A stretch of 59,187 nt of DNA from Acidobacteriota bacterium (GTDB taxonomy: Bacteria > Acidobacteriota > Terriglobia > Bryobacterales > Bryobacteraceae): contig JAPKZB010000082.1 in NCBI GenBank assembly GCA_026393985.1, positions 1 through 59,187 on the forward strand, in the 5' to 3' direction. Under the pieces are notes generated by a model. It was not told where the DNA came from. It worked only from the letters and a program-made list of their open reading frames with translations, and searched no databases. Below are positions 4,159 through 15,944 of the stretch, in pieces. The stretch's first letter is position 1; each line of letters begins with the position of its first letter. A program made the position numbers and the translations under genes.

Positions 4159-4169
4159 AAAGGCTTACC

Positions 4170-7100
4170 TTGTCTACCGTCGCTGTCATCGCTGAAAAAC
4201 CGTCCGTTGCCCGCGACCTGGCCAAAGTCCTGGGCGCCACGCAGAAGGGCGATGGCTACCTGCACGGCGGGGGCTACATTGTCACGTGGGCGATTGGGCA
4301 CCTGGTTTCGCTCGCCCAACCCCACGAGATTCGGCCGGAATGGAAGCAGTGGCGGCGCAATACGCTGCCGATGCTGCCGGAGTCCTGGCCGCTGGTGGTC
4401 TATGACAAGACGAAGGACCAGTTTGCGACCGTCCGCAAGATTCTCACTTCGCCGAAGGTGGAACGGATTATCTGCGCGACGGACGCGGGTCGGGAGGGCG
4501 AACTGATCTTCCGCTACATCTACGACGCGGCGGAAACCGCTAAGCCGGTTGACCGGCTGTGGATCTCCTCCCTGACGGCGGACGCCATCCGCGAGGGGTT
4601 CGCGCAGCTGCAATCGGCAAGCGCCTACGACGGCCTGGCGGACGCGGCCCGCGGGCGTTCGCGCGCGGATTGGCTGGTCGGTATGAACCTTTCGCGGGCC
4701 TACTCGCTGGCCTATAACGAAGAGCTTTCGGTGGGGCGGGTGCAGACGCCGACACTGGCCATGATTGTGGAGCGGGAACTGGCGGTGCGGGCGTTTGTTC
4801 CGGAGGAGTACCGCGAGGTCGTCGTGACGTTTTCGCCGCAGGAGGTGGCGTCGAAGCCGACCTACCTGGGGACGTGGTTCCGGACCCCCGAAAAGGGCGA
4901 GACGCTGCAGCAGGCCATGCGGCTGCCGGCCAAGACGGACGATGCCAAGCAGATTGTGGCGCGGGCCAAGTCTGGGGTGGCGCGCATCGGAAGCATCGAG
5001 TCCGAGACCAAGAAAATGGGGCCGCCGCTGCTCTACGACCTGGCCGAACTGCAGCGCCACGCCAACCGGCTTTACGGTTATTCGGCGCAGAAGACCCTTG
5101 ATATCGCGCAGGCGCTGTATGAATCGCACAAGCTGATCTCCTATCCGCGAACCGATAGCCGCCACCTGTCGCGCACGGTGGCCGCCGGGTTGCCGGCGAT
5201 TGTCAAAGCCGTGGCCCCGCGGTATCCGGGTCTGTTGGCCGAAGGTACCGGGCAGCGCCCGCTGTCGGCGCGCTACGTCGACGATGCGAAGGTCTCTGAC
5301 CACCACGCCATCATCCCCACGGCTACCAATCCCGGCCGGGTCAACCTTTCGTCCGAAGAGAAGAATCTGTACGACCTCGTCTGCCGCCGCCTGCTTTCGG
5401 CCTGGCACGGCGACTATGTCACCGATGTGACCACCGTGATCACGCATATCGTCAACGGAGAGATCACCGATCAGTTCCACTCGGCTGGCACGGTGGTGCG
5501 GGAGAAGGGCTGGAAGGTGCTCGATATCGTCGTCGAGAAGAAGGGCAAGAAGGCGGAGGAGTCCGGTGATGCCGCGGATCAGACGCTGCCGGCGGAGCTT
5601 CGTACGGACCAGCCGCAGGAGGTGGTCAAGGCCGATTCGCTGCTCAAGAAGACCCGCCCGCCCAAGCGCTTCAACGACGCCACGCTGCTCACGGCGATGC
5701 AGACCGCCGGCAAGACCCTCGATGAGAAAGAACTCTCCGAAGCGATGAAGGAAAACGGCCTGGGCACCCCGGCCACGCGGGCGGCGATTATCGAAGTGCT
5801 GCTCAAGCGTGGCTACGTTCAGCGCAACGGCAAGACGCTGGAAGCCACGGATAAGGGTATCCGCCTGATTGAGGTCGTCCACCCGGAGGTGAAGAGCCCG
5901 ATCATGACGGGCCAGTGGGAGGCTTATCTCAAGCGTATCGAGCGGGGGCAGGCCGAGCTGGCTCCGTTTGTCAAAGGCATTGAAGGATACGTGACGGCGG
6001 TAGTGGGCAAAGTGGGCCAGGCGCCGCCGCCTCCGGCTGCCGCCCCGGCCCCCGCGGCTGTCCCCCCGCCGCCGGCCGAACTTCCGCCGCTCACCAGCAC
6101 GGACCTGCCCACACTACTGCACGAAGCATTCGGCTTCAAAGAGTTCCGTCCGAGCCAGGAGGCCGTCTGCCGCGCGGTCGTGGAGGGTCAGGACGTCCTG
6201 CTGGTCATGCCGACCGGGGCCGGCAAGTCGCTCTGCTACCAGCTGCCCGGTTTGGCGCGGGGCGGCACCACGCTCGTCATCAGTCCGCTGATTGCGCTGA
6301 TGGAGGATCAGGTGGCCAAGCTCCAGCAGCGCGGCTTCGCCGTTGAACGCATCCATTCCGGCCGCGACCGCGCGGCTTCCCGGCAGGCGTGCGTGGACTA
6401 TCTGGCCGGCCGTCTGCACTTTCTGTTTATTGCGCCGGAGCGGCTCCGCGTGCCCGGCTTTCCTGAAATGCTGGCCAAACGTAAGCCGACGCTGGTGGCG
6501 GTGGACGAAGCGCACTGCATTTCGCAATGGGGTCACGACTTCCGACCGGACTACCGCACGCTTGGCCAGCATCTGCCGGCGCTCCGGCCGGCACCCGTTA
6601 TCGCGCTGACGGCTACGGCGACGCCGCTGGTGCAGAACGATATCGCTGAGCAGTTACGGTTGGGCGAGAGCGGACGTTTCATTCAGGGGTTCCGGCGCGA
6701 CAACATTGCGATTGAAGTCGTGGAAGCCAATCCGAGCGAACGCGCCGATTTGGCCCGCCAACTGCTGCAGGACGCCGACCGGCGGCCGGCGATTGTCTAT
6801 GCGCCCACGCGCAAGCAGGCCGAGGAGGTGGCGGTTACGCTGAAGGGCGTCTGCCCGACGGCGTCGTATCACGCCGGCCTGAATGCGGAGGTGCGGGCGC
6901 GGGTGCAGGCGGGCTTTCTCGACGGGCGCCTCGATGTCATTGTCGCCACCATCGCCTTCGGCATGGGCATCGATAAGCCGAACGTCCGCACCGTCATCCA
7001 TACCGCCCTGCCCGGGAGCCTGGAGGGCTACTACCAGGAGATTGGCCGTGCCGGCCGCGATGGCGAGATGTCCCGCGCCGTGCTGATGCACTCCTACGCC

Positions 7101-8102
7101 GACCGCCACACCCACGACTGGTTCCACGAGCGCGACTACCCGGACGTTAAGATCCTCGACAAGATCTTTCAAGCCCTCTCACCGCAACCCATCGCCAAGG
7201 AGGACCTGCAGGCCAAGGTTCGCATGGAGCAGGAGGCGTTCGACAAAGCGCTCGAAAAGCTCTGGATCCATGGCGGCGCGCTCGTGGATTTCGCCGAGAA
7301 TATTGCCGAGGGACGGCCCGAATGGAAGGAGCCCTACCAGGCGCAGATCAACCAGAAACTGGCGCAACTGCAGAACATGCTCCGCTTTGCCGATGGCAGC
7401 CAGTGCCGCATGGCCGCGCTGGTCGCCCACTTTGGCGACAAGGCCGGCGCCGTGGACCCGTGTGGCATCTGCGATTTCTGCGCGCCCGATGCCTGCCAGG
7501 CGCAGGTCTTCCGCGAAGCCAGCGCCCGGGAACTCGAAGTGGCCTGCGAGATTGTCAAAGCCCTGAAGAAATCCGACGGCCGGTCCACCGGCAAGCTCCA
7601 CACGGAGCTGTGCGGCGGCACCACGCTCTCGCGCGATAACTTCGAGCAGATCCTGAGTGCCATGGCCCGCATCGGGCTGGTCGAGTTGAAAGAAGAGACC
7701 TTTCAGGCCGAGGGCCGGGAGATCGCCTTCCGCCGTGCCCTGCTGACGTGGGAGGGCAGCCAGGCCGATCCTGCCGAATTCGATCTCCTGATCAAAGACC
7801 GCCCCGAAAAAGGCGCCGCCGCGGGGCGCCGAGCCAAGCCGGCCGTGAAGAAGGCCGCCAAGCGCGCGCGCGCCCAGGCTAGCGCTTCTAGCCCCGTCGT
7901 TGAAGCGTTGAAGAAGTGGCGGCTCGCCCAGGCCAAGAAAGAAGGGGTGCCGGCCTTCCGCATTCTCACCGATAAGGTGCTGGCTGAGATCGCCGATGAC
8001 CTGCCTGCCACGCAGGAGGAGCTGCTGCAGGTGGCGGGCCTGGGCCCCCGCACGGTCTCCCGCTACGGGACGCATCTGCTGAAGATTCTCAGCCAAGCGT
8101 AG
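4170..8102 (+). CDS. Fusion protein: DNA topoisomerase III (type IA) + RecQ helicase with HRDC
   Basis: Residues 1 to about 615 are a type IA topoisomerase of the TopB class. They show VIAEKPSVARDLAKVLGA at the N-terminus, the toprim acidic motif in ATDAGREGELIFRY, and the strand-cleaving tyrosine at residue 325 in SYPRTDSRHLS. A proline/alanine linker (about 617-642) leads into a complete RecQ helicase. It has FRPSQEAV, Walker A GAGKS near 682, DEAH at 779-782, QEIGRAGRDG near 955, zinc-binding cysteines CGICDFC near 1098, and an HRDC domain at about 1235-1308. Separate TopB and RecQ cooperate in decatenation and junction dissolution; here both are in one 1310-residue chain. This is not a reverse gyrase: the order is reversed and the helicase is RecQ-type. 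The start is TTG, divergent from gcvP. No frameshift separates the halves. Confidence 0.96.
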   Translation: MSTVAVIAEKPSVARDLAKVLGATQKGDGYLHGGGYIVTWAIGHLVSLAQPHEIRPEWKQWRRNTLPMLPESWPLVVYDKTKDQFATVRKILTSPKVERIICATDAGREGELIFRYIYDAAETAKPVDRLWISSLTADAIREGFAQLQSASAYDGLADAARGRSRADWLVGMNLSRAYSLAYNEELSVGRVQTPTLAMIVERELAVRAFVPEEYREVVVTFSPQEVASKPTYLGTWFRTPEKGETLQQAMRLPAKTDDAKQIVARAKSGVARIGSIESETKKMGPPLLYDLAELQRHANRLYGYSAQKTLDIAQALYESHKLISYPRTDSRHLSRTVAAGLPAIVKAVAPRYPGLLAEGTGQRPLSARYVDDAKVSDHHAIIPTATNPGRVNLSSEEKNLYDLVCRRLLSAWHGDYVTDVTTVITHIVNGEITDQFHSAGTVVREKGWKVLDIVVEKKGKKAEESGDAADQTLPAELRTDQPQEVVKADSLLKKTRPPKRFNDATLLTAMQTAGKTLDEKELSEAMKENGLGTPATRAAIIEVLLKRGYVQRNGKTLEATDKGIRLIEVVHPEVKSPIMTGQWEAYLKRIERGQAELAPFVKGIEGYVTAVVGKVGQAPPPPAAAPAPAAVPPPPAELPPLTSTDLPTLLHEAFGFKEFRPSQEAVCRAVVEGQDVLLVMPTGAGKSLCYQLPGLARGGTTLVISPLIALMEDQVAKLQQRGFAVERIHSGRDRAASRQACVDYLAGRLHFLFIAPERLRVPGFPEMLAKRKPTLVAVDEAHCISQWGHDFRPDYRTLGQHLPALRPAPVIALTATATPLVQNDIAEQLRLGESGRFIQGFRRDNIAIEVVEANPSERADLARQLLQDADRRPAIVYAPTRKQAEEVAVTLKGVCPTASYHAGLNAEVRARVQAGFLDGRLDVIVATIAFGMGIDKPNVRTVIHTALPGSLEGYYQEIGRAGRDGEMSRAVLMHSYADRHTHDWFHERDYPDVKILDKIFQALSPQPIAKEDLQAKVRMEQEAFDKALEKLWIHGGALVDFAENIAEGRPEWKEPYQAQINQKLAQLQNMLRFADGSQCRMAALVAHFGDKAGAVDPCGICDFCAPDACQAQVFREASARELEVACEIVKALKKSDGRSTGKLHTELCGGTTLSRDNFEQILSAMARIGLVELKEETFQAEGREIAFRRALLTWEGSQADPAEFDLLIKDRPEKGAAAGRRAKPAVKKAAKRARAQASASSPVVEALKKWRLAQAKKEGVPAFRILTDKVLAEIADDLPATQEELLQVAGLGPRTVSRYGTHLLKILSQA

Positions 8103-8103
8103 G

Positions 8104-9768
8104 ATGTTAAGATCGCTCTGCATGCTCCGACTCAGTCTGTGTCTCCTCCTCCTCGCCGCCGTGGCCTCCGCGCAGCCGGGCGATCGCGCTCATGGGCGGT
8201 CGATGGTGATCGCCACGGGCGGCATCGTCGCTACGAGCCAAGTGCTCGCTTCGCAGACCGGGGCCCAGATCCTCGGCCAGGGGGGGAACGCCGTCGACGC
8301 GGCGATTGCCGCCAACGCCGTCCTGGGTCTGGTAGAGCCGATGATGTGCGGCATCGGAGGCGACCTGTTTGTGATGTACCGCGACGCCAGGACCGGCCAG
8401 ATCACCGGCCTCAACGCCTCCGGGGCCGCCCCGCAGGCGATGACCATCGCGGCGCTGCAAGCGAAGGGCCTCAAGAAGATGGACTCGACCGGCATCCACT
8501 CGGTGACCGTCCCGGGCTGTGTCCGCGGCTGGCAGACGATGCACAAAAAGTACGGCAAACTGCCCTGGAAGACGCTCTTTGCGACGGCCATCCGCCTGTC
8601 GCGGGAAGGCTTCCCGATTCAGGAGATGGTCGGTCGCGGGTGGGACTCGCCGCTCGTGCGCCAGGACCCGGAGGGCATTCGCGTCTTCTATCCCAACGGC
8701 AAGGTTCCGGCGGTGGGTGAGCGGTGGAAGAATCCGGACCTGGGCCGCGCTATGGAGCTTATCGCTGAGCAGGGCGCCGATGCATTCTATACAGGCGAGA
8801 TCGCCGCCGCCATCGTACGGAAGTCGCAGCGCCTGGGAGGGCTGCTCACTGCGGCTGATCTGGCGGCTTTCGAGCCGGAATGGGTGACACCGCTGTCGAC
8901 CACCTACCGCGGCTGGCGCGTCCATGAGCTCCCGCCGAACGGGCAAGGGCTGGCCGCGCTGTCGATGCTCAATATCCTTGAAACGTTTCAGCCGGCCGGC
9001 CCGTTTTCGGCTACCGAGTTCCACCGCAAGATCGAGGCGATGAAGCTCGCCTATGCTGATCTGCAGTATGTTGGCGACCCGCGCGTGGTCCGGGTGCCCA
9101 CGGCCGGTATGATCGCCAAGCCCTACGCAGCGCAGCGCGCCAAGCTCATCCAGCCCGCCGTGGCCAACTGCGCGGTGGGGCCGGGGCAGCCGCCGACCTC
9201 GAGCGACACCACGTATTTTTCGGTGGTGGATCAGGAGGGCAATATCGCCTCCTGGATTCAGAGCGTGTCGGGCAGTTGGGCCTCCGGGGTGATGGTGGAT
9301 GGCATGGGGTTCCATCTGCACAACCGCGGCGCCAGTTTCAGCTTCGACAAGGCGGCGGCCAATGCGCTGCAGCCCGGCAAGCGCCCATTTCACACCATCA
9401 TTCCCGGCATCGTCCAGAAGGATGACCTGCACATCGGCTTCGGTATCATGAGCGGCGCTAACCAGCCGCTGGCGCACGCGCAGTTTGTCTCTTACCTCGC
9501 CGACCACGGGATGAACCTGCAGGAGGCGCTCGAAGCCCCGCGCTTTACCAAGGCCCGGGCGACAGGTTGCGACGTGACCATTGAGTCGCGGGTGGGCCTC
9601 GATTCGCTGCAGCAGCTTTCGGCCAAGGGCCACCAGATCACGATCGCCCAGCCGTATACCGCCCGCATGGGCCGTGGCAACGCCGTCATGCACAACGCGA
9701 GAACGAAGGTGAACACCGGCGCCTCCGACCCTCGCGCCGACGGGGCGGCCATCCCGCAGCCGCAATAG
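8104..9768 (+). CDS. ggt: Gamma-glutamyltransferase
   Basis: This N-terminal-nucleophile enzyme cleaves or transfers the gamma-glutamyl group of glutathione and related compounds, normally in the periplasm. The precursor has a signal peptide (LRLSLCLLLLAAVASA) and then ASQTGAQILGQGGNAVDAAIA and GIGGDLF, typical of the family. The autoprocessing site and catalytic threonine is T369 in SSDTTYFSVVD, which would yield large and small subunits. A GIMSGANQPLAHAQ stretch near the C-terminus corresponds to the usual conserved glycine-rich segment. The gene begins one base after the topoisomerase-RecQ stop. An internal ATG at 8122 is an equally good start, because it begins directly at the signal peptide. 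Confidence 0.95.
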   Translation: MLRSLCMLRLSLCLLLLAAVASAQPGDRAHGRSMVIATGGIVATSQVLASQTGAQILGQGGNAVDAAIAANAVLGLVEPMMCGIGGDLFVMYRDARTGQITGLNASGAAPQAMTIAALQAKGLKKMDSTGIHSVTVPGCVRGWQTMHKKYGKLPWKTLFATAIRLSREGFPIQEMVGRGWDSPLVRQDPEGIRVFYPNGKVPAVGERWKNPDLGRAMELIAEQGADAFYTGEIAAAIVRKSQRLGGLLTAADLAAFEPEWVTPLSTTYRGWRVHELPPNGQGLAALSMLNILETFQPAGPFSATEFHRKIEAMKLAYADLQYVGDPRVVRVPTAGMIAKPYAAQRAKLIQPAVANCAVGPGQPPTSSDTTYFSVVDQEGNIASWIQSVSGSWASGVMVDGMGFHLHNRGASFSFDKAAANALQPGKRPFHTIIPGIVQKDDLHIGFGIMSGANQPLAHAQFVSYLADHGMNLQEALEAPRFTKARATGCDVTIESRVGLDSLQQLSAKGHQITIAQPYTARMGRGNAVMHNARTKVNTGASDPRADGAAIPQPQ

Positions 9769-12616: not shown

Positions 12617-12645
12617 TTGACTCGCCGGGCCGAAATTGATAAAAG
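12617..12645 (+). promoter_or_regulatory. Promoter of the first TonB receptor
   Basis: TTGACT (12617-12622), a 17-base spacer and TAAAAG (12640-12645) form a plausible sigma-70 promoter. The expected start site falls at about 12652, essentially at the ATG at 12654, so the transcript may be leaderless. Confidence 0.5.
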
Positions 12646-12653
12646 TGACAGCA

Positions 12654-15600
12654 ATGTCCTTATTGCGAAGTCTTCTTTTACTATCCATTTCGGCTGCGGC
12701 CGGCCTGGCTCAATCCGGTACCGGCGACCTGGGAGGAACCGTGATCGACTCCTCCGGCGCCGCGGTGGGCGGCGCGACCGTCACCATCTCGAACCCCGCG
12801 ACGGGCTTTTCCCGCGTGCTGCGCACGAACGAAGGCGGCATCTATGCCGCGCCGGCGTTGTCGCCGGGGGCTTACACCATCAAAGTGGAAAAAGAAGGAT
12901 TTCAGAGCCAATCACGGGCCGGGGTGGAACTGCAGGTGGGCCAGGCGCCGACGTTGAACTTTACGCTGGCTGTCGGCAACGTGGCCGAAGTCATTGAGGT
13001 GAAGGGTGGCGCTCCGGTGCTGGAGACCGAAACAACCTCCGTCGGAACGGTGATTGAGAACAAGCGCATTGTGGAGTTGCCGCTCAATGGCCGCAACTAC
13101 CTGCAGTTGGCCTCGCTGATCCCCGGCGCGACCACCAACGGCCCGGCGTCGAGCCAGGGGCAGCAGCGCATGGGCGGAGCCCGCAACGCGTTTGCCCTGA
13201 ACGTGGCCGGCCAGCGCGTCCACTTCAACCACTACACGCTCGACGGCATGGAGAACACCGACCCGAACTTCAACACCTACCTCTTTCTGCCCTCGCTCGA
13301 CGCGCTGCAGGAGTTCAAGGTGGAGTCCGGCCTGTTTTCGGCCGAGTACGGCCGTGGCATTGCGCAGGTGAACGTGTCCACCAAGGGCGGGACGAACGAC
13401 CTGCACGGCGTGGGGTTCTCGTTCGTGCGGAACTCGGTTTTTGACGCCCGGAATTTCTTCGCCCCGGTGAACCCGCCGTTCAAACGGAATCAGTTTGGCG
13501 GAACGATCTCGGGGCCCGTGCGGATTCCGAAGGTGTTCGACGGCCGGAACAAACTCTTCTTCATGTTCAACTACGAGGGCCTGCGGGAGCGGCGCGCGCT
13601 GACGCAGCAGAGCACGCTGCCCGATGCGCGTTTCCGCAGCGGCAACTTCGCGTTTCTGAACCGCGCCATCCGCGACCCGCTTAACGCCGGACAGGTGTTC
13701 CCGGGGGCGATTATTCCGGAGAGCCGCATCAGCCCGACCTCGCGCCGGGTATTGACCGAATACTATCCCGGGCCGAATCAGACCGGCGGCGGGGCGTTGG
13801 GGATCACAAACAACTACCTGAACGACGAATCGCGACGGACGGACGGCGACCAGTTTACCACCCGCGGCGATTTGACGGCGTTCCAGAATCAGACGTTCTT
13901 CTTCCGCTTTTCGCAGACCAAGGAGCCGCAGTACATTCCGTTCAATATCCGCAACACCGGCAACAACGTGGACATTCTGGGCCAGCAGGGCGTGCTCGGC
14001 CACACGGCCGTGATTGGCGCGAACAAAGTAAACGAGTTCAAGTTTGGCATGAACTACTTCAACTCGGCCAACATTCAGCAGCGGGCTTTCAAAGAGAATA
14101 TCGTCGGCAAGCTGAATCTGCCCGGCATCTCGCAGGACCCGCTCTTCTGGGGTCTGCCCGTCTTCCAGATCTCCGGCTTCGCCAACGTCGGCGAGTGTAA
14201 CGACTGTCCGTTCGTGAACTGGAACACGACGTTCCAGCTGTCCGACAACTTCTCCTGGACCTCCGGCCGCCATACGTTTAAGTTCGGCGGCGAGTACCGG
14301 CGGCTGCGCTACAACCAGATTGGCGCTGTCGTGCCGCGCGGGCGTTTTTCCTGGAACGGCCAGTATACGGGCGAACCGATGGCCGATATGCTGCTCGGCC
14401 ACATGTCGAACACCGAGGGCCAGGTGGGCGCGCCGGTGGCAAGCTTCCGGCAGAACTACATGGCGCTGTATCTGAACGATACCTGGAAGATCACCAACAA
14501 GCTGACCATGAACTGGGGTCTGCGCTGGGAGTACGAGTCACCGTTCGCGGACAAGAACGACGCGATTGTGAACGTGGACTTCGCTTGGGATAACTCGCGC
14601 GAGCCGGTCTTTGTACGGGCGGGCAAGGGCGACCTGAACCAGGGCAATCCGGCGTTTCCCGCGCCGGCCGGCTGGCAGTTGGTGCGCGACGGACGCTTCG
14701 GACGGGGCGCGGGCGTGCCGGACCGGAACGACTTCGGGCCGCGCGTGGGTCTTGCTTATCAACTGGACGCGAAAACGGTGCTGCGGACCAGCGGCGGCAT
14801 TTACTACGTGCGCGACATCGGCAACGCCGTGTTCGACATTGTCCGTAACATTCCGTTCACTATCCGCCAGGCGGAGGTTGCGGACACCACGCGGCCGAAT
14901 TTGAGTTGGAGTCAGATCTTCACCCGGCCGGGAGCGCCGAGCTTCCTGCTGATCAATCAATACGGGGAGCGGACTTCGTATGTTGCGCAGTGGCAGACCT
15001 CGGTGCAGCGGCAGTTGACGCAGGACATGTCGCTCGAGGTGACCTACATGGGCTCGGCCGGCATCAAGCTGCGCCGCCTGACCAGTTACAACAACCCGGA
15101 GCCGGCGCCGGGCAACCCGAATCTGAACCGTCCGTTCCCGAAGTTCAACGGCAGCTTTCAGAACATGAACGCCCCGGCCCACTCGAGCTATCACGCTCTG
15201 CAGATGCGCCTGCAGCAGCGCTTCTCGAATGGCTTCACCCTGCTGGCTTCTTATGCCTACGGCAAGTCGATCGACAACGGCTCGGGCGTCCGCACGACGG
15301 ACGGCGACCCGCTGACTCCGTCGAACAATTACGACCTCAGAGCGGAGCGCGGCCTTTCGGCGTTCGACTTCCGGCAGCGGTTGACGGCTTCGTTCCTTTA
15401 TGAACTGCCGTTTGGCAAGGGCCGAAAGATTGCGTTGGCCAATGGCTTCGTTGATGCGGTCCTCGGCGGATGGCAGATTGGCGGCATCACGACGTTCCAG
15501 GACGGGTTCCCGGCGACGGCGTTTTGCGGACCGGGCAACGTGCAGAACGGCGGCGGGTATTGCAAGCCCGACGCGGTGGCGAGCGAGAAGACCGGACTGC

Positions 15601-15944
15601 CGGACAACCAGCGCACGGTGCAGCGGTATTTCAATACCAACGCGTTTGTGGACCGGCTGGGCGTGGCTCCCGGTGCGGCGCAGCCGGTGTTCCGCTACGG
15701 AACGGCGGGCCGGAACACCATCATCGGACCGGGAATCATTGGTATCGATGCGAGCATTAACAAGTTCTTCCGCTTCTTTGAGGGCAAGCATGCCGTCGAG
15801 TTACGCGGAGAGTTCTTTAATGCTCCCAACCGGGCCAACTTCTCCCAGCCCGGGACAACCCTGCGGACCCCGGACTATGGAGTGCTGAGTTCGACCCGCA
15901 TTGACTCCCGGCAAATTCAGATCGCGCTGCGTTATAGCTTCTGA
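12654..15944 (+). CDS. TonB-dependent receptor with carboxypeptidase-regulatory domain (Oar-like)
   Basis: This is an outer-membrane receptor of about 1096 residues. A signal peptide (SLLRSLLLLSISAAAGLAQ) is followed by a carboxypeptidase-regulatory-like beta-sandwich (GDLGGTVIDSSGAAVGGATV, about residues 25-105). The plug region contains LPLNGRNYLQLASLIPG and the YTLDGMENTDPNFNTY loop, and a long beta-barrel ends in the terminal phenylalanine of RYSF. Such acidobacterial proteins are thought to import or display large substrates; the ligand cannot be predicted. The ATG at 12654 is preferred over an upstream TTG because it starts the signal peptide. It lies in tandem with a second receptor but is not closely related to it in detail. 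Confidence 0.93.
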   Translation: MSLLRSLLLLSISAAAGLAQSGTGDLGGTVIDSSGAAVGGATVTISNPATGFSRVLRTNEGGIYAAPALSPGAYTIKVEKEGFQSQSRAGVELQVGQAPTLNFTLAVGNVAEVIEVKGGAPVLETETTSVGTVIENKRIVELPLNGRNYLQLASLIPGATTNGPASSQGQQRMGGARNAFALNVAGQRVHFNHYTLDGMENTDPNFNTYLFLPSLDALQEFKVESGLFSAEYGRGIAQVNVSTKGGTNDLHGVGFSFVRNSVFDARNFFAPVNPPFKRNQFGGTISGPVRIPKVFDGRNKLFFMFNYEGLRERRALTQQSTLPDARFRSGNFAFLNRAIRDPLNAGQVFPGAIIPESRISPTSRRVLTEYYPGPNQTGGGALGITNNYLNDESRRTDGDQFTTRGDLTAFQNQTFFFRFSQTKEPQYIPFNIRNTGNNVDILGQQGVLGHTAVIGANKVNEFKFGMNYFNSANIQQRAFKENIVGKLNLPGISQDPLFWGLPVFQISGFANVGECNDCPFVNWNTTFQLSDNFSWTSGRHTFKFGGEYRRLRYNQIGAVVPRGRFSWNGQYTGEPMADMLLGHMSNTEGQVGAPVASFRQNYMALYLNDTWKITNKLTMNWGLRWEYESPFADKNDAIVNVDFAWDNSREPVFVRAGKGDLNQGNPAFPAPAGWQLVRDGRFGRGAGVPDRNDFGPRVGLAYQLDAKTVLRTSGGIYYVRDIGNAVFDIVRNIPFTIRQAEVADTTRPNLSWSQIFTRPGAPSFLLINQYGERTSYVAQWQTSVQRQLTQDMSLEVTYMGSAGIKLRRLTSYNNPEPAPGNPNLNRPFPKFNGSFQNMNAPAHSSYHALQMRLQQRFSNGFTLLASYAYGKSIDNGSGVRTTDGDPLTPSNNYDLRAERGLSAFDFRQRLTASFLYELPFGKGRKIALANGFVDAVLGGWQIGGITTFQDGFPATAFCGPGNVQNGGGYCKPDAVASEKTGLPDNQRTVQRYFNTNAFVDRLGVAPGAAQPVFRYGTAGRNTIIGPGIIGIDASINKFFRFFEGKHAVELRGEFFNAPNRANFSQPGTTLRTPDYGVLSSTRIDSRQIQIALRYSF

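Follow-up and report, generated by a model that had tools for sequence, protein, structure and literature searches.

In the eukaryotic dissolvasomes (BLM-TopoIIIalpha-RMI1/2 and Sgs1-Top3-Rmi1) a RecQ-family helicase is combined with topoisomerase III, and the two have been reviewed as separate partners which form these complexes (PMC4109787). We have analyzed a bacterial gene which encodes both enzymes as one protein. The gene lies at 4170..8102 on the forward strand of a stretch of 59,187 nucleotides from an Acidobacteriota bacterium of the family Bryobacteraceae (contig JAPKZB010000082.1, assembly GCA_026393985.1); this stretch in its full length is called the window in the following. The eukaryotic complexes consist of separate subunits together with RMI proteins, whereas the fused protein is one chain, has a topoisomerase III of the bacterial TopB type, and has no RMI domain among its Pfam matches. 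The physical joining of RecQ and topoisomerase III which characterizes a dissolvasome is here, as judged by sequence, a covalent one.

The relatives of the two halves in Escherichia coli, RecQ and TopB, are separate proteins whose partnership is disputed, and the fused RecQ differs from E. coli RecQ in belonging to another RecQ branch and in having an extra winged-helix-like insertion. In a Listeria record (L308, 2974-6923) the genes of the two enzymes are likewise neighbors with the same orientation, separated by 23 nt, but they remain two genes, with recQ first and annotated as an ordinary RecQ; this adjacency is an independent link between the enzymes. Two Bacteroidales loci have topB approximately 2.6 kb upstream of recQ on the same strand.

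Reverse gyrase likewise combines an SF2 helicase and a type IA topoisomerase in one chain, with the helicase preceding the topoisomerase. In the fused protein the Pfam domain order places the topoisomerase first, the mirror order that the first-pass annotation of this DNA had pointed out. The fused protein also differs in its RecQ zinc and HRDC domains, and it stays below the cut-off of the reverse gyrase family (TIGR01054; 105.8 bits against 471.7, the stretch that matches best being in the topoisomerase part). No TopB-RecQ fusion is described in the titles and abstract openings listed by a full-text literature search whose coverage leaves out most subscription journals and preprints, which agrees with the earlier remark that no characterized example was known. 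In excerpts of three reviews of type IA topoisomerases (PMC10969213, PMC8185306, PMC8191776) the terms for RecQ or fusion lead to reverse gyrase or to no such protein. It is to be expected that such proteins sit in the sequence databases under the name of one half.

The gene is a single open reading frame of 1310 amino acids with a TTG start, a TAG stop and 0 internal stops. All six Pfam domains (Toprim, Topoisom_bac, DEAD, Helicase_C, RecQ_Zn_bind, and HRDC) exceed their gathering scores. The features are as follows.

4159..4163, forward strand: AAAGG, a likely ribosome-binding site inferred from the sequence, with the TTG start 6 nt downstream
4170..8102, forward strand: coding sequence of the fused topoisomerase III-RecQ protein (open reading frame and profile matches)
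4182..4571, forward strand: TOPRIM domain, residues 5-134, with E9, K10, D105, and E109 (Pfam PF01751 and conservation)
4626..5972, forward strand: type IA topoisomerase domain (Topoisom_bac), residues 153-601 (PF01131, 8.6e-106; TIGR01056)
5142..5144, forward strand: codon of Y325, the presumed DNA-cleaving tyrosine in SYPRTD, its role taken from the family (motif position and conservation)
6006..6089, forward strand: in-frame Pro/Ala linker, about residues 613-640 (alignment and low pLDDT)
6147..6623, forward strand: RecQ RecA domain 1 (DEAD), residues 660-818 (Pfam)
6747..7064, forward strand: RecQ RecA domain 2 (Helicase_C), residues 860-965 (Pfam)
7146..7310, forward strand: extra winged-helix-like insertion between RecA domain 2 and the zinc domain, residues ~993-1047 (model secondary structure and spacing)
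7338..7481, forward strand: RecQ zinc-binding domain, residues 1057-1104, with C1079, C1098, C1101, and C1104 (Pfam PF16124)
7524..7745, forward strand: winged-helix-like domain with a long beta hairpin, residues ~1119-1192 (model secondary structure)
7896..8090, forward strand: HRDC domain, residues 1243-1307 (Pfam PF00570, 4.6e-19)

RecA domain 1 contains Walker A (681-687, TGAGKS at 682), DEAH (779-782), and the aromatic-rich loop CISQWGHDFRPDY, and RecA domain 2 contains motif VI, QEIGRAGRDG, at residue 956. One open frame is confirmed to encode a whole topoisomerase III (TopB) and, behind it, a whole RecQ-family helicase. The single 1310-residue protein of the first-pass annotation is thus borne out by the reading frame, by the profile matches and by its recurrence in relatives, and the catalytic motifs ascribed to the two halves (Y325, Walker A, DEAH, motif VI, the zinc cysteines, and HRDC) have all been located.

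The topoisomerase half passes the cut-offs of TIGR01056 topB (593.4 bits against 515.75) and NF005829 (667.3 against 597). The helicase half passes that of the RecQ family, TIGR00614 (384 against 219.8), and scores below that of the canonical RecQ equivalog, TIGR01389 (495.9 against 640.2). The closest solved chains by sequence are E. coli topoisomerase III for residues 7-619, and for residues 647-979 the RecQ core 1oyw of E. coli. A stretch of similar length aligns at what is presumably the position of the decatenation loop. A structure model of the RecQ half (675 residues, pLDDT 85.1, pTM 0.75) has the order of two RecA domains, winged-helix-like insertion, zinc region, winged helix with a long hairpin, and HRDC; the winged-helix labels are our interpretation of the order of elements in the model secondary structure. 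The second winged helix (~1119-1192) has no match to the RQC family in Pfam and no RecQ chain by sequence. When the model was searched with Foldseek the RecQ and BLM cores ranked first; BLM also has an HRDC domain. For a model of residues 1-1199 of modest confidence (pLDDT 69.3, pTM 0.41, with pLDDT under 50 in the linker residues 618-642) the best Foldseek match was E. coli topoisomerase III (2o59_A, E 6.4e-42, TMt 0.79).

Conservation was analyzed in 104 fused frames, of which 76 were distinct by a rough filter and 2 of these, being of a decayed type, were excluded; the counts at each site cover the rows which reach it (68-74). In the topoisomerase Y325 is present in 71/71 rows, D105 and E109 in 69/69, and E9 in 67/68, and in the helicase K686 is found in 74/74 and D779, E780, R960, and R963 each in 73/73. 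Each of the four zinc cysteines is Cys in 70/70 rows, and Q786 of the aromatic-rich loop is retained in 61/73. TOPRIM has Gly in place of the second Asp of its DxD (DAGREGE) in 69/69 rows reaching the site, and this is therefore a feature of the group and not damage. In 74 aligned rows the length of the linker varies between 5 and 209 residues (median 34.5), and Ala plus Pro make up 36% of it. Comparison of the window gene with seven copies from the same genus by the Nei-Gojobori method gave dN/dS ratios, which are rough because many dS values are near or above 1, of 0.030-0.096 for TopB (one row saturated), 0.030-0.052 for the helicase, and 0.06-0.22 for the linker (one row saturated; near 0.2 in five of the seven rows). 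Both halves are under strong purifying selection within the genus, and the linker is less constrained.

The architecture is found beyond one genome, in Acidobacteriota, Myxococcota, and Bdellovibrionota. The counts are read from the matches listed, some of which stop short of HRDC. Within the order at least 100 of 257 genomes have the fusion in one frame (91 in an order-wide set and 9 from a set of 61 relatives). In the genus 15 of 19 genomes have an open frame across the junction, 12 of them whole and three shorter but spanning (G001, G008, and G010), in agreement with the earlier statement that the Pro/Ala linker contains neither stop nor frameshift. A sample of the phylum (347 genomes) gave 8 whole fusions (G000, G265, G281, G315, G322, G412, G436, and G592), that of G412 being confirmed separately. 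The fusion is present in one frame in 12/77 genomes of Myxococcota around G605, in 3/240 genomes of Bdellovibrionota around the Bdellovibrionales genome G606, and in 1/27 genomes to which a varied set of RecQ and TopB loci had led (G966, Myxococcaceae). Single records of it came from Bryobacterales (L052 and L059), Myxococcales (L054), Myxococcaceae (L061 and L067), and Bdellovibrionales (L056). No record covering 80% of the protein was found among the matches listed for a plasmid collection (5000 records) or among the records counted in a phage collection; in viral contigs 8 loci matched, in the RecQ part only.

In a tree of 108 RecQ rows, made by a quick method with SH-aLRT support only, 44 fused and 45 standalone relatives are one group (support 100) separate from 19 other RecQs. 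Within the group the fused rows are mixed with the standalone ones, and six myxobacterial standalone RecQs split off first (88 for the rest). The spacer from motif VI to the zinc cysteines is 95-145 residues in the group, where both could be found, and in other RecQs it has a median of 49 and a range, 44-214, which overlaps that of the group. In a TopB tree of 69 rows 46 fused TopBs, two stub proteins (see below) included, are on one side of a branch (98) and 23 standalone TopBs, chosen from match lists, on the other; the lone TopB of G034 was not included. Tree distances of one half against the other correlate with r 0.80 in 44 fused rows and with r 0.78 in a subset of 25 rows, values reached in 0/2000 permutations in both cases. 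The single clade of fused TopBs and the agreement of the half trees favor one origin followed by losses and transfer. The simplest reading of the trees would be one fusion after the first split, moved or inherited as a unit, with one half lost repeatedly; repeated fusion of near relatives is a possible alternative.

No TopB remnant was found upstream of the standalone RecQs in 71 of 72 loci, the exception, L030, being a fusion with a changed frame. The search covered 91 to 3090 nt per locus, of which up to 90 nt are the RecQ start, and some loci are duplicates. Loss by decay in place is thus not documented. Six of the standalone RecQs of the group (L146, L149, L152, L153, L154, and L157) have a second HRDC-like match at the C terminus. 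In G034 the record L309 (5562-8135) contains a lone TopB of the fused kind, 68% identical, with a stop in the linker; RecQ is absent from the 5.5 kb 3' of it in this genome, which has a contamination of 7%. Separate halves in G032, G505, G010, and G058 are only apparent; their frames extend to the outermost bases of the contigs, and the break is therefore assembly-derived.

Among 19 genomes of a single genus, three, which represent three closely related species, encode a TopB fused to a RecQ stub which ends after RecA domain 1 (G540, L135 1387-4080; G500, L136 1444-4068; G935, L303). In the stub DEAH is changed to EEAE, the aromatic-rich loop is lost and RecA domain 2 is absent, while the Lys of Walker A is retained (GKT). 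The stub is not a helicase, because DEAH is altered and both the loop and RecA domain 2 are missing. In the three pairs dN/dS was 0.14, 0.15, and 0.17 for the stub and 0.075-0.093 for TopB, and the 44 codons of the linker gave 0.53-0.59. A standalone RecQ from the group of the fused RecQs is additionally present in G500 and G540. By these ratios the stub is under constraint despite the loss of helicase function, possibly as a pseudo-helicase regulator, and the first RecQ domain can be of importance even where helicase activity is gone. BLM and Sgs1 reportedly stimulate the decatenation by topoisomerase III independently of unwinding (PMC8803869), which fits a regulatory role for the stub.

Our preferred model is that the protein probably acts as a single-chain helicase-topoisomerase in which the unwinding of joined DNA and strand passage take place in cis. 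The RecQ half would translocate on DNA and open the duplex beside joined or entangled molecules. Approximately 30 flexible residues away, the topoisomerase III half would cut the newly exposed single strand via Y325, pass another strand through and reseal, so that unlinking would follow unwinding without recruitment of a separate partner. Candidate substrates would be recombination joint molecules, such as D-loops or double Holliday junctions which have collapsed to a hemicatenane, and, towards the end of replication, precatenanes or converging forks. Double-Holliday-junction dissolution is one possibility, and precatenanes, converging forks, and D-loops are equally possible. From the enzyme families and from the conservation in the fused rows we infer that unwinding is 3'-5' and driven by ATP, that strands are passed, that the halves are coupled in cis, and what the substrate is.

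The single-chain enzyme is supported because both halves score above family cut-offs, have fold matches, and have near-invariant catalytic residues. It is further supported by the purifying selection, the single TopB clade, the congruent half trees, and the finding of no second TopB or RecQ in the genome of the window (97.9% complete, 96 contigs), in which a type IA enzyme at 31% and weakly matching helicases make up the remaining hits at E <= 1e-3. The Listeria gene pair, the eukaryotic dissolvasomes and the effect of RecQ on topoisomerase III in vitro also support it. Co-expression alone or chance explains poorly why the halves are retained together with intact active sites. The fusion with intact catalytic residues in three phyla is comparative evidence that RecQ and topoisomerase III cooperate in some bacteria.

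Several observations weigh against the model. Many lineages retain only the RecQ of the fused group and one, G034, only the TopB, and a match of the fused clade is absent from the genomes of 15 of 61 relatives (16 more show a partial match, at contig ends, as single halves or with frame changes). The fusion is thus dispensable on an evolutionary time scale. Half of the 30 whole-fusion genomes among these relatives contain another RecQ-like match (E <= 1e-30) and two, G020 and G052, a further partial TopB-like match at the same threshold. The idea that fusion genomes lack separate topB and recQ genes holds for the genome of the window as assembled and is not borne out by those relatives which have such further matches. 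The model of residues 1-1199, at pTM 0.41, gives no trusted placement of the halves relative to each other, and with a linker which is not conserved the coupling could be by proximity alone. Finally, the cooperation of separate RecQ and Top3 proteins that the first-pass annotation took for granted stands for eukaryotes (PMC4109787) and is contested for E. coli. A partnership there has been described (PMC8191776, PMC4191389), while a 2026 paper reports that E. coli RecQ is able to modulate topoisomerase III in vitro and that assays in E. coli gave no interaction or partnership between the two (PMC13244152).

A more far-reaching version of the preferred model, which we put forward tentatively as somewhat less than an even chance, is that of an ancient bacterial single-chain dissolvasome which would have fused once and spread to three phyla, in which the RecQ part would directly set the gate of the topoisomerase and the stub would be retained as a regulator. 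Whether the catalytic domains of RecQ and type IA enzymes contact or signal to each other was an open question in a 2014 review (PMC4109787), and the fused protein offers a system in one polypeptide and free of RMI proteins in which this can be studied. Intact fusions, RecQ-only, TopB-only, and TopB-plus-stub proteins are a natural deletion series.

A view of the function which is compatible with the single-chain enzyme is that its main job would lie in decatenation when replication ends, in cells that lack topoisomerase IV, and not in recombination. Among the 61 relatives the GyrA/ParC family (PF00521, E <= 1e-30) has one match in 56, none in 5, and two in 0, so that topoisomerase IV is apparently lacking in this group, whether or not a genome has the fusion. 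E. coli topoisomerase III is described as an efficient decatenase when it is given single strands (PMC4191389). However, relatives without the fusion (for example G025, G027, and G059) also have one GyrA/ParC match, and the lack of topoisomerase IV thus does not predict the fusion; as its cause it was rejected on these grounds. We regard decatenation as the main job as possible but on the unlikely side.

It is a little less likely still that the fusion serves dosage or co-localization only, so that the halves would be synthesized 1:1 and act on their own substrates without coupling. The linker could be taken to say so, since it is Ala/Pro-rich, of 5-209 residues, faster evolving than the domains, and low in model confidence, and so could the persistence of RecQ halves without TopB in many lineages. 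Against it stand the congruent histories of the halves across a tree which spans three phyla, and dosage does not explain a RecQ stub which is not a helicase and is nevertheless under purifying selection on TopB in three species.

That the RecQ half is mainly a structural regulator of the topoisomerase gate, acting independently of unwinding, appears improbable. The stub proteins of G500, G540, and G935, which retain only RecA domain 1 at dN/dS 0.14-0.17, would agree with it, as would the stimulation by BLM and Sgs1 reported to be independent of unwinding (PMC8803869). The stub is however from three closely related species only, with three pairwise comparisons, and in the other fused rows the residues of the helicase motifs are invariant except Q786 (61/73), which suggests that unwinding has been retained there.

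An enzyme which introduces positive supercoils like reverse gyrase would have the same two enzyme classes on one chain, and the helicase part of reverse gyrase is termed RecQ-like in PMC8185306, but this is very improbable in view of the score of 105.8 bits against 471.7, the RecQ zinc and HRDC domains, and the opposite order. That two genes have been fused by an assembly or sequencing artifact has a negligible probability: two related genomes have a frame change in the linker (G038, L290; G036, L291), by sequencing error or true split, but at least 100 of the 257 genomes in the order, and genomes from other phyla, have an open junction, and misassembly of the window is excluded in practice by the 15 of 19 spanning frames of the genus and the distant open fusions.

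The neighbors of the gene are rarely conserved. In 21 related loci, most of them with short flanks, gcvP was found in 3/21 and ggt in 1/21, so the context gives no function. In the window a gamma-glutamyltransferase gene (8104-9768) begins 1 nt past the stop codon of the fusion, and an outer membrane beta-barrel protein with a carboxypeptidase regulatory-like domain is encoded at 12636-15944.

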